A stretch of DNA of 64,000 nucleotides from Haloarcula pelagica (lineage in GTDB: Archaea > Halobacteriota > Halobacteria > Halobacteriales > Haloarculaceae). The translations under genes were made by a program, and so were the position numbers. Shown in pieces: positions 27,607 to 63,809 of this stretch (position 1 is the first letter of the stretch; each line of letters starts with the position of its first letter). The notes below the pieces were generated by a model. The model was not told the origin of the DNA and ran no database searches. It saw only the letters and a list, made by a program, of their open reading frames with translations. The DNA lies in the NCBI RefSeq assembly GCF_030127105.1, contig NZ_CP126161.1:558001-622000 (forward strand), written 5' to 3'.

Positions 27607-28863
27607 TCACTCAGTGAGCAGGTCGGCAGCGACGCGCCCGCTCTCTAAGGCCCCCTGGATCGACGACCACCGGGTGTAGTCGCCGGCCAGGACCACCGGT
27701 CCGTCGGGTGCGTCGGGGTCGGGCAGACCGGCACGGAACCCGGGCGGCTGTGCGAACTGCGCCAGCGGCACCCGGTCGGTCCGCAGCAGTTCCAGGTCGT
27801 CGAAGCTCGCTGCTGGGTACCACGAGCCAAGTGCCTCGCGGACTGCCGTCGCCAGCGTCGCGTCGTCGTCCTCGGGCGTGCCGAGGAACGTCGCGCTGTA
27901 CAGTTCCATCCCCTCGGGCGCGTACTCGGGGGCGACCGCGGACATCGGCGCGACGGTGTTTGGCCGCTCGTCGGCGGCGTTGAGGACGATCCGTTTGCCC
28001 ATGTCCGGCGCCCGGTTCGTCGGGAGCGCGAAGTACTGGGTGACACAGCCCAGGATGTCCGTCGTGATCCCGGCCACGTCGGTCAGGTCGGCGGCCGTCG
28101 CCGGGTCGGTGGCGACGACGACCCCCGCCGGGGAGAGCGTCTCAGACCCCACTTCGACGGTCGCCGCGTCGCCCTCGCCGGCGACCGCGGTGACCGTCCG
28201 GTCGGTCTCGATCGTCGCGCCGGCGGCCCGCGCTCGGTCGGCCAACTGCTCGGGCATCGCCTCCATTCCCGCTGCCGGCACGAATATCTCGCCCTCGCTC
28301 AGCATCTTGTAGGTGTACTCGAAGATCGCGCTGTCGGTCCCGAGCGAACGGTCCAGCGTGATCCCGCCGTAGAAGGGCGCCGCGAAGCGCTCGACGAACC
28401 GCTGTGAGAACCCACGGTCGGCGAGGTAGTCACTGATCGGCTTCCCGCCGCCACGGAGGATCGCCTCGGGGTCCCGACCCGCCAACTCGCGCTGGAGGGT
28501 GAACAGCCGGAGTTTGTCCGCGAGGCGCACGTCACGGTTGAACGCCGTCTCGACGGCCGCGGTCGGTACGCGCAGCGGGTCCGACAGCACCGACCGATGG
28601 TTCGGCCGCGCGATGGTCGCCCCCGGCGTGAACGGACGGGGCGAGAGCGCCTCCACGTCGAGTTCCCGCTTGACCGCGGGGTACGCCGAGAACAGCACCT
28701 GAAAGCCCCGGTCGAACGTGTACCCGTCCTCGTGGGCGGTGCGGACGCGCCCGCCGACCTGCTCGCTGTCCTCGAACACCGTCACGTCCCGTCCGGCTTC
28801 GGCGAGGTGGCGCGCGGCGACCAGGCCGGCCAGTCCCCCGCCGGCGACGACGACATCTGTCAT
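27607..28863 (-). CDS. FAD-dependent amine/phytoene-type oxidoreductase
   Basis: The 418-residue flavoprotein begins VVVAGGGLAGLVAARHL (Rossmann FAD motif, residues 3-20), followed by GGRVRTAHEDGYTFDRGFQVL, the second conserved segment of the amine-oxidase/phytoene-desaturase superfamily. VVLAGDYTRWSSIQGALESGRVAA at the C-terminus closes the FAD site. ATG 28863 is chosen because the motif follows directly. The GFQVLFSAYPAVKREL segment is typical of haloarchaeal homologues of protoporphyrinogen-oxidase-like proteins, whose substrates are unknown. The gene is divergent from the threonine-synthase-like gene, 82 bp apart. Confidence 0.85.
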   Translation of the reverse strand: MTDVVVAGGGLAGLVAARHLAEAGRDVTVFEDSEQVGGRVRTAHEDGYTFDRGFQVLFSAYPAVKRELDVEALSPRPFTPGATIARPNHRSVLSDPLRVPTAAVETAFNRDVRLADKLRLFTLQRELAGRDPEAILRGGGKPISDYLADRGFSQRFVERFAAPFYGGITLDRSLGTDSAIFEYTYKMLSEGEIFVPAAGMEAMPEQLADRARAAGATIETDRTVTAVAGEGDAATVEVGSETLSPAGVVVATDPATAADLTDVAGITTDILGCVTQYFALPTNRAPDMGKRIVLNAADERPNTVAPMSAVAPEYAPEGMELYSATFLGTPEDDDATLATAVREALGSWYPAASFDDLELLRTDRVPLAQFAQPPGFRAGLPDPDAPDGPVVLAGDYTRWSSIQGALESGRVAADLLTE

Positions 28864-28945: not shown

Positions 28946-30100
28946 ATGGAGACGACAGCGACGTTCCGTGGCCTCGCCTGCACCGTGTGTGGCACGACGG
29001 CCGACGCCGACGCGACACGCTGCCCCGACTGTGGTGGGACCCTCGCCGGCGACTACGACTACCCCGAACTGACGCCGGCCGACCTCCCGGATCGGCGAGC
29101 ACAGGCCGGAGCCGTGCTCCCGTTCGAGGCGGACACGCTGGTCAGCATCGACGAGGGCGGGACGCCGCTGGTCGCGGTACCCACGCTGGCCGAGGAACTG
29201 GGCGTCGAGGCCGTCTACGTCAAAGACGAGGGCCGGAACACGACGGGGTCGCTGACCGACCGCAAGCTCTCGGTGGCCGTCACCGCCGCCCGCCAGTCCG
29301 ACGCCGACGCGGTCGCGGCCCCGTCGACCGGCAACGGCGCACAGGCCGCCGCTGCCTACGCCGCCCGCGCCGACCTCGACTCGAAGGGGTACGTCCCGTC
29401 GCGGTGTCCGTTCCTCAACAAGGCGATGGTCAACGTCCACGGCGGCGACATGCGGGTCGTCGAGGGCCGCTACGACGACGCCGTCGCTGCCTTCGACGAA
29501 GCCCACGGCGACCGCTACAGCGTCGCGCCCGGCCACCCGTTCCGCGTCGAGGGCGCCAAGCCCGTCGCCGTCGAGACGGTCGCACAACTGGACTGGACCG
29601 CACCCGACGCCGTCGTCCACCCGACCGGCCACGGCGAGAGCCTCGTCGGTCTCGAACGCGGGTTCGGCGCCGCCGCGGCGACCGGCCTCGTCGACCGCGA
29701 GCCGGAACTGTACGCCGTCGAGCCCGACGGCTGTGCGCCCCTGACGGACGCGTGGGTCGAGGGGAGCGAGACGCCCGCCGCCGTCGACCACCCGGACACT
29801 ATCGTCGGGCCGCTGGAGGTCCCCGACCCCGCTGCCGGGACCGCCGCGCTCGCCGCCGTCGAGTCTTCCGGTGGCGGGGCGGCGGCAGTCGAGGACAAAG
29901 CGGTGCTCCAGGGCGCCGTCGACGGCTGCGAACTCGGCCCCGAGGTCGGTGCCACCGGCGGGACCGCCGTCGCCGGCGCACGGGAACTGGCACACAGGGG
30001 CGCCTTCGCAGACGACGACGTGGTCGTCCTCGTCAACCCGATCGCGGGGAGCAAGGAGGCCGATCTGCTGCGGAGTCACCTGATGAGTCAGGGCATCTGA
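28946..30100 (+). CDS. threonine-synthase-like protein lacking the PLP lysine
   Basis: The 384-residue protein has an N-terminal zinc-ribbon pair (CTVC, about 12-15; CPDC, about 26-29) and a fold-type II PLP domain like threonine synthase. At the site where the family has Thr-Gly-Ser/Thr-Phe-Lys-Asp-Arg, with Lys forming the Schiff base, this protein reads TGSLTDRK. Thr104 replaces the catalytic Lys and Leu103 the Phe. The codon is ACC at 29255-29257. The phosphate loop (HPTGHGES) also departs from the family. A functional-looking threonine synthase with FKDR intact is at 62631-63809. This copy is probably a pseudoenzyme with another role. Confidence 0.8.
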   Translation: METTATFRGLACTVCGTTADADATRCPDCGGTLAGDYDYPELTPADLPDRRAQAGAVLPFEADTLVSIDEGGTPLVAVPTLAEELGVEAVYVKDEGRNTTGSLTDRKLSVAVTAARQSDADAVAAPSTGNGAQAAAAYAARADLDSKGYVPSRCPFLNKAMVNVHGGDMRVVEGRYDDAVAAFDEAHGDRYSVAPGHPFRVEGAKPVAVETVAQLDWTAPDAVVHPTGHGESLVGLERGFGAAAATGLVDREPELYAVEPDGCAPLTDAWVEGSETPAAVDHPDTIVGPLEVPDPAAGTAALAAVESSGGGAAAVEDKAVLQGAVDGCELGPEVGATGGTAVAGARELAHRGAFADDDVVVLVNPIAGSKEADLLRSHLMSQGI

Positions 30101-30109
30101 GTCGGCGAG

Positions 30110-30712
30110 TCAGGACGCGACGTGCTGTTTCGCCATCGTGTAGGCCTCGCGGACACGCTTGAACTCGTCCTCGTCGCCGCCGTGGTCGGGGTGGACTTCC
30201 TTGACTCGCTGCCGGTAGGCCGACTTGACCTCGGCAGGGGTCGCGCCGTAGTCCAGTCCCAGTTCCTCGAAGGCACGCACGGTCGGATCACCCGACTCCT
30301 CGGGGTCGGGGCCGAGCGTCACTTCGGGCACCTCGAACGGGAGACGAGTCCCGAGGTGGATACCGGGCATCTCGTGTTCGACCAGCACCGGATAGGTCGG
30401 TGACCGTTCGATCCGGTAGTACGCCCGGGCGTCGAACGTGATCGCCACGTCCCGCTTCGGGAGGTAGAAGGCGACGTGCTGGCCCTCGACGAAGTGGTTC
30501 TCCGCGAACTGCTCGTCGATCGCCGTCAGGTACTCCCGGAGCTCCGAGCGGCGCCGTTCCTCGCCACCGTCGCTCATCCGGCGGGCCTGCTGTTCGGCGG
30601 GAAAGAGGCGACTCGCCGTGAGAAACAGGCCAGCGACGAGGACGCTCCCGGCCGCACCGAGCCCCAGACCGAGGACGAGCCAGTTCGGGAGCGTACCCAG
30701 TTGTGACTGCAC
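30110..30712 (-). CDS. membrane-anchored J-domain protein (DnaJ-like)
   Basis: The 200-residue protein has an N-terminal membrane helix (about residues 11-35), a middle beta-rich region (VAFYLPKRDVAITFDARAYY) and a C-terminal J domain (about 143-198) containing the HPD motif at residues 174-176 that stimulates DnaK-type chaperones. The J domain at the C-terminus and a membrane anchor at the other end indicate a specialised, membrane-located co-chaperone. There is no Gly/Phe or zinc-finger region. It converges on the threonine-synthase-like gene. Confidence 0.82.
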   Translation of the reverse strand: MQSQLGTLPNWLVLGLGLGAAGSVLVAGLFLTASRLFPAEQQARRMSDGGEERRRSELREYLTAIDEQFAENHFVEGQHVAFYLPKRDVAITFDARAYYRIERSPTYPVLVEHEMPGIHLGTRLPFEVPEVTLGPDPEESGDPTVRAFEELGLDYGATPAEVKSAYRQRVKEVHPDHGGDEDEFKRVREAYTMAKQHVAS

Positions 30713-62630: not shown

Positions 62631-63809
62631 ATGGACCGGCTACGCTGTTACGCCTGCGGAGCGACCACGAGCGAGAGCGACCGCTATCGCTGTTCGTGTG
62701 GCGAACCGCTCTGGCTCGACACCGACCCGACCGGGTTCGAGTGGCCCGCCGACACCGATCGGTCGATGTGGCGCTACAGCGCTCTCCTGCCGGCCGTGAC
62801 GCCGACCGGGCTCGCGGCGTCCGCGGGCGGGACCCCGCTCGTTCGGACGGATCGGCTGGACGGCGATGTCGGGGCGACCGTCTCGGTGAAGTACGAGGGG
62901 TCGAACCCGACCGGGACGTTCAAAGACAGGGGGAGCGCGGTCGGCGTCGCGATGGCGAAGACCGGGACCGTCGCCACGGTCTCGCACGGGAACATGGCCC
63001 GGTCGATGGCGGCACACGCCGCGAGCGCGGGGCTCGACTGTCTCGTGTTCGTCCCGGCGGACGTACCCCAGGAACGGCTCTCGCTCCTGGCGCGCTACGA
63101 CCCGACGATCCTCCGCATCGAAGGGGAGTACGGTCGACTCTACGAAGCCTCGCTCCGGTTGGGCAGGGCACACGACATCGCGGTCGTCAACTCGGACGCG
63201 CCGGCCCGCGTGGCCGGCCAGAAGACGACCGGCCTGGAGATACTGGCGGCGTTCGCGCCGTCGGTTCCCGACGCCATCGTGCTCCCGGTGTCGAGCGGGG
63301 GCCACGCCAGCGGCATCTGGAAGGGGATCGAGGAGCTGTTCGCGGCGGGCGTCGTCACCGAGCGCCCGCGGCTCTACTTCGTCCAGGCGGCGGCGTGTGC
63401 ACCGATCGCCGCGGCCTGGGACCGCGGCGAGACTACCGTCGCGCCGGTCGACGGCGGCGAGACGGTCGCGTACTCGATCGCGAACGCGGACCCACCCAGC
63501 GGGAACCGGGTGCTCGCGGCCGCTCGGCGGACGAGCGGGGGTGTCCTGGCGGTCGACGACGACGCGATCCTCGACGCCCGACGGACCCTCTCCGAACGGA
63601 CGGGGCTGTTCGTCGAGTCCGCGTGTGCGACGGCCCTCGCTGGCGCGCGAGCATTGGGAAGACAGAGGGCGTTCGAACCGGACGACGAGGTCGTCCTCGT
63701 CGCGACCGGGACCGGCTTCACGGAACGCGACCTGGCGACCCCGTCGGTCTCTGCGCCGACGGTCCCGCTTGCCGACCTCGACGACGCGGTCGCGGCACGT
63801 ACCGACTGA
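62631..63809 (+). CDS. thrC: threonine synthase
   Basis: The 392-residue PLP enzyme converts O-phosphohomoserine to threonine. GSNPTGTFKDRG includes the Schiff-base Lys98, and VSSGGHASGIWKG binds the PLP phosphate. The N-terminal CYAC and CSCG (about residues 6-24) make a zinc ribbon typical of archaeal threonine synthases. The FKDR block is intact, in contrast to the paralogue at 28946-30100. The start follows the DUF7519 gene after 37 bp on the same strand, so it may be cotranscribed. Confidence 0.88.
   Translation: MDRLRCYACGATTSESDRYRCSCGEPLWLDTDPTGFEWPADTDRSMWRYSALLPAVTPTGLAASAGGTPLVRTDRLDGDVGATVSVKYEGSNPTGTFKDRGSAVGVAMAKTGTVATVSHGNMARSMAAHAASAGLDCLVFVPADVPQERLSLLARYDPTILRIEGEYGRLYEASLRLGRAHDIAVVNSDAPARVAGQKTTGLEILAAFAPSVPDAIVLPVSSGGHASGIWKGIEELFAAGVVTERPRLYFVQAAACAPIAAAWDRGETTVAPVDGGETVAYSIANADPPSGNRVLAAARRTSGGVLAVDDDAILDARRTLSERTGLFVESACATALAGARALGRQRAFEPDDEVVLVATGTGFTERDLATPSVSAPTVPLADLDDAVAARTD

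Follow-up and report, generated by a model that had tools for sequence, protein, structure and literature searches.

In a 64,000-nucleotide stretch of the Haloarcula pelagica genome (hereafter, the window), a threonine-synthase-like protein lacks the lysine expected to bind PLP. From the sequence comparisons described below, we consider it probable (roughly 0.7) that this protein is a pseudoenzyme, retained for a second function that does not depend on PLP and is linked to a conserved C-terminal tail. A first-pass annotation of the window had proposed a kept non-catalytic or altered role, and this is the best-supported explanation not only for the one gene but for its family, given that the phosphate loop is lost together with the lysine (151/151), that dN/dS is about 0.18, that nearly all genomes retain the gene and that the C-terminus is invariant. 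Pseudoenzymes are already known, and they are usually single dead paralogues. What is new is the repeated loss in place among orthologues, together with the partition of catalysis and tail: one orthologous protein is retained across an entire archaeal class, while the lysine needed for catalysis seems to have disappeared from it on several occasions.

The gene (28946-30100, + strand) encodes 384 amino acids in a frame without internal stops, and the full-length frame reported earlier is thus borne out. The protein matches the PF00291 profile with 190.7 bits (gathering cut-off 35), which places it in the PALP superfamily. Its AlphaFold2 model (pLDDT 91.1, pTM 0.91) has threonine synthases for all of its best PDB matches in Foldseek, with TM-scores of 0.75-0.88 to solved threonine synthases and a PALP domain in common with ThrC (TIGR00260, NF006050/PRK08197); the model and these matches indicate fold type II architecture. 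The N-terminal zinc ribbon that had been noted is also seen, as a zinc-ribbon-like CxxC...CxxC segment at residues 12-29 (28979-29032, + strand). Most of its cysteines are gone from Haloferax-type orthologues that likewise lack the PLP lysine (L063 6001-7167 and others).

The Schiff-base motif of the protein reads KDEGRNTTGSLTDRKLSVAV in translation. It lies within the degenerate segment KDEGRNTTGSLTDRK (residues 93-107; 29222-29266, + strand), whose flanking KDE, NPTG and DR elements are conserved family-wide. Where ThrC is expected to carry TGSFKDR, this protein has TGSLTDR, with Thr104 (codon ACC, 29255-29257, + strand) at the PLP-binding lysine position as assigned by phmmer alignment to structures 2zsj, 2d1f and 1uim; translation and structure alignment thus agree with the earlier claim that threonine replaces this lysine. 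The PLP-phosphate loop is likewise degenerate. In the family alignment, residues 226-232 read PTGHGES (29621-29641, + strand), so that GHGES stands where ordinary ThrC has PVGNAGN/GNAGN and Lys-bearing relatives have GGGVG. A third departure from ThrC is Pro365 (30038-30040, + strand), which aligns with Thr317 of the Thermus threonine synthase (1uim), a residue that we take to contact the pyridine N1.

Other ThrC features remain, including the KxEGxNPTG and DR flanks and the phosphohomoserine-side arginine. The family alignment shows Asn130 retained in the asparagine loop STGNG (29324-29338, + strand), and this residue is missing in 34 of 151 Lys-less members. The substrate-side motifs KDEGRNPTG, DR and PYRHEG with Arg200 are kept in Lys-less members, and their presence could mean that some ligand or chemistry remains.

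At E <= 1e-60, 383 of the 391 Halobacteria genomes sampled have an orthologue, and divergent, partial or broken copies occur in most of the others. Plasmid records hold only more distant relatives (36-39% identical). All sampled Haloarcula species are Lys-less, with A, G, D, S or T at the site, and lysine is also absent from every named Haloferax locus examined. It is kept in named Halobacterium loci and in most Natrialba, Halorussus, Haladaptatus and Halorubellaceae loci. Lysine in homologues had been put forward as a sign of sequencing error, and such homologues do exist (79 of 230 distinct family proteins); however, the Lys-less majority (151/230), which uses fifteen different replacement residues (A, L, T, V, G, R, D, Y, S, F, H, I, N, Q and E), speaks against that reading. 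The chance that codon 104 reflects an error of sequencing or assembly is negligible. Two split PALP genes in the same assembly could reflect indel errors, but the nearest relative (L006, 88% identical) carries alanine at this position and no sampled Haloarcula carries lysine, and we regard the error as refuted.

Loss of the lysine is accompanied by loss of other PLP contacts. Lysine, Asn130, GGGVG and Thr365 occur together in all 72 of the 72 intact Lys-bearing members, and GGGVG is found in none of the 151 Lys-less members. Three proteins (L054, L058 and L186) have lysine at the site yet carry a degenerate phosphate loop, as expected of a freely drifting codon that occasionally hits lysine. 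Of all 384 sites, none rises as much in entropy from the Lys-bearing to the Lys-less group as site 104, with the adjoining Asp105 and Arg106 staying at 100%; the former lysine position has thus been freed from constraint rather than re-specialised.

Median dN/dS is 0.179 for close Lys-less pairs (345 pairs) and 0.206 for close Lys-bearing pairs (893 pairs), where the pairs are not independent of one another, and there is no sign of relaxed selection in the Lys-less members. The Lys-less members thus show two characteristics of a pseudoenzyme, namely catalytic residues lost from an enzyme fold and purifying selection. These values bear on the view that a redundant threonine synthase copy is becoming a pseudogene. 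Such a route would account for the missing catalytic residues in a genome with an intact ThrC elsewhere, and a rare decayed member with three in-frame stops does exist in the Haloferacaceae (G317:C1:2774574-2775428, L179). It is nevertheless very improbable, with intact frames in the listed genomes and an almost invariant C-terminus, and decay is largely refuted by the dN/dS of about 0.18 and the class-wide retention.

The number of losses was assessed on a tree from which the motif columns had been left out. With the intact active site as the scored state, the minimum is 4 changes, or 7 losses if regain is disallowed, and scoring the bare lysine state gives a minimum of 6 changes, or 14 losses if regain is disallowed. 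The clearest separate losses are in Halobacterium G018 (FRDR), which adjoins Lys-bearing Halobacterium (support 94), and in a Natrialbaceae group (support 97). Forcing all dead members into one clade costs 90 log-likelihood units with a p-AU of 0.047, and a single loss event is thus rejected weakly and marginally. Gene order is common to Lys-bearing and Lys-less relatives: one context is found in Lys-bearing Halopiger and Natrialba as well as in Natrinema, which is Lys-less, and another in Lys-bearing Halostella and Haloarchaeobius as well as in Lys-less Haloferax. This shared order supports loss of catalysis in place, which appears to have happened several times. One fully intact Lys-bearing member (L238, in G165) sits beside Lys-less sisters of the same genus (support 100), reflecting either retention or replacement by transfer.

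The protein ends in the family-specific segment DLLRSHLMSQGI-COOH (residues 373-384; 30062-30097, + strand), which in the family alignment follows the consensus [VIL]LRSHLM-[SG]-[QK]-G-[IV]-COOH in Lys-bearing and Lys-less groups alike. Canonical ThrC lacks this segment, seen here as the extra C-terminus LRSHLMSQGI. R376, S377, L379, M380 and G383 are each conserved at 98-100% in Lys-less members, and a few of them (L174, L175, L176 and L183) have either an altered tail or none. A 23-base DNA pattern for the tail has a single match in the whole Haloarcula genome. In about 100 genomes sampled from the phylum outside Halobacteria, the ordinary ThrC matches end before the last residues of the query, as judged from the matches and, for a dozen of these loci, from direct reading.

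Genomes with two copies separate the tail from the catalytic site. In each of 11 Haloferacaceae genomes and in G390, one copy has the lysine and no tail, and the other has the tail and no lysine. The Haloferacaceae copies form one well-supported clade in the tree, and the partition represents few independent events, mostly a single Haloferacaceae acquisition. Other pairs are less tidy. Both copies in G156 carry the lysine, with a degenerate loop in the tailed copy and thus no clean split, and in G001 and G007 the Lys-less copy has an altered tail and is paired with a distant Lys-bearing paralogue. Despite the few independent events, the direction is clear that the catalytic site and the tail are separable. 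Such duplicated cases, in which the two reside on different copies, amount to a natural experiment indicating that a second function can be separated from PLP catalysis.

Threonine synthesis by the Lys-less protein is very unlikely, and the best reading assigns this reaction to an ordinary ThrC encoded at another locus of the genome. The protein falls below both curated cut-offs for this enzyme (228.4 against 303 bits for NF006050 and 105.4 against 167.1 bits for TIGR00260), and all ThrC motifs are found in a separate Haloarcula gene, whose product scores above the thrC cut-off (281 versus 167 bits). Disruption of HVO_2969 (thrC3) alone makes Haloferax volcanii auxotrophic for Gly/Ser/Thr (PMC4300041). 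In close Haloferax relatives, the Lys-less gene lies between HVO_0817-type and HVO_0819 (SirR)-type genes, and therefore the H. volcanii orthologue is probably HVO_0818. A role as the required threonine synthase is accordingly rejected, as a separate canonical gene exists and the auxotroph maps to HVO_2969 rather than to the expected HVO_0818.

The Haloarcula genome also contains several further PALP paralogues. One of these (62631-63809, + strand), used here for comparison only, had been described at first pass as a second copy that keeps FKDR. The motif is indeed intact (NPTGTFKDRG), but the gene is no duplicate, as it belongs to a different subfamily and its product is 37% identical.

Upstream and divergent lies a flavin amine-oxidase or phytoene-dehydrogenase-like gene of the HVO_0817 type (27607-28863, - strand), which adjoins Lys-bearing and Lys-less orthologues alike, a pairing conserved over several families. 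HVO_0817 has been proposed to be a second phytoene dehydrogenase (PMC4300041). A convergent gene (30110-30712, - strand) encodes a DnaJ domain, judging by a Pfam DnaJ match on the Haloferax homologue. It is followed by genes that we take to be of the PAC2, aIF2-alpha and Nop10 types. Haloferax-like genomes have conserved SirR/GDT1/LysE neighbour genes; neither these nor the divergent flavin oxidoreductase gives a clear clue to a pathway, and no other PALP gene is next to the Lys-less locus.

The preferred explanation would run as follows. The ancestor of this Halobacteria-wide PALP-fold family may have been a PLP enzyme that already bore the conserved C-terminal tail, and the Lys-bearing tailed relatives are presumed from their sequences to be PLP enzymes still. 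Haloarcula and several other lineages would then have given up PLP chemistry, losing the lysine together with the phosphate loop and, in many cases, the N1 contact, while the folded protein and its tail survived because of another function that does not depend on PLP. This function would most likely consist of binding and regulating a protein or small-molecule partner. We infer that PLP binding and Schiff-base chemistry are absent from the Lys-less members and that the function kept by these proteins resides in the tail.

One version of the pseudoenzyme explanation casts the protein as a dead subunit that forms a hetero-oligomer with an active PALP paralogue (ThrC, the 62631 paralogue or another) and activates or inhibits it. 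Such an arrangement is possible but on the whole unlikely. It would suit the threonine synthase fold and the several PALP paralogues available as partners in the same genome, and a dead deoxyhypusine synthase paralogue provides a precedent (PMC3663545). However, the Lys-less protein is retained across lineages with differing sets of paralogues, its locus has no neighbouring PALP gene and homo-oligomers are equally possible.

It is more doubtful that the protein is still an enzyme, whether holding PLP non-covalently or through Lys107, Lys93 or Lys159, or using its former active-site pocket for a reaction that needs no PLP. The retained KDEGRNPTG, DR and Arg200 are consistent with this alternative, as are Lys93 and Lys159, which are almost invariant. 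Yet these two lysines are equally invariant in Lys-bearing members, and Lys93 also in ordinary ThrC; they are therefore not replacements. Lys107, suggested at first pass as a substitute, finds no general support, being almost fixed in Haloarcula-like members (~97%) but glycine in most other Lys-less members. A newly gained lysine is ruled out, as none was found across the 151 Lys-less members. Loss of the phosphate loop in all Lys-less members and free drift at site 104 further argue against continued catalysis.

More speculative again, and drawn from analogy, is the idea that a partner, which may be another PALP enzyme, receives the invariant tail in its pocket, as CysK does the C-termini of CysE and CdiA. 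The CysK partners CysE and CdiA-CT carry a C-terminal isoleucine (PMC4961446). Both systems involve a PALP fold and a free, conserved C-terminus in which an aliphatic residue follows glycine (...QGI-COOH here), which is a resemblance of sequence only; in the haloarchaeal case, unlike that of CysK, the tail sits on the PALP-fold protein itself. If docking does occur, the family would be a dedicated regulatory subunit found throughout Halobacteria that has repeatedly shed its own catalysis.

Returning to the pseudoenzyme explanation, the closest relatives for comparison are the Lys-bearing haloarchaeal proteins of Halobacterium, Natrialba and Haladaptatus, which share the orthologous locus, the tail and about 50% identity. 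They differ in having the intact lysine, the GGGVG loop and Thr365, and NF006050 names them threonine synthase. Among established pseudoenzymes, the dead deoxyhypusine synthase paralogue and PDX1.2, an enzyme-derived pseudoenzyme according to its citation in PMC6522883, are similar in that the catalytic residue is gone, the fold is kept and the gene is under selection. These two are paralogues beside an active partner, whereas the haloarchaeal loss appears to have occurred in situ, in orthologues and repeatedly. Our literature search found no description of the Lys-less haloarchaeal gene and no biochemical or genetic data on it; its function is testable in H. volcanii, probably at HVO_0818.

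The family also exposes a problem of naming. A Lys-less protein from Natrinema zhouii (L055 6001-7185) scores 341.7 bits against the NCBIfam equivalog NF006050 'threonine synthase', above the cut-off of 303, and therefore automated annotation would name a Lys-less protein as an active enzyme. Outside the window, two further PALP genes of the Haloarcula genome (G000:C1:653335-654176 and C1:2002986-2003857) are each split over two frames, and these are either pseudogenes or assembly indels.
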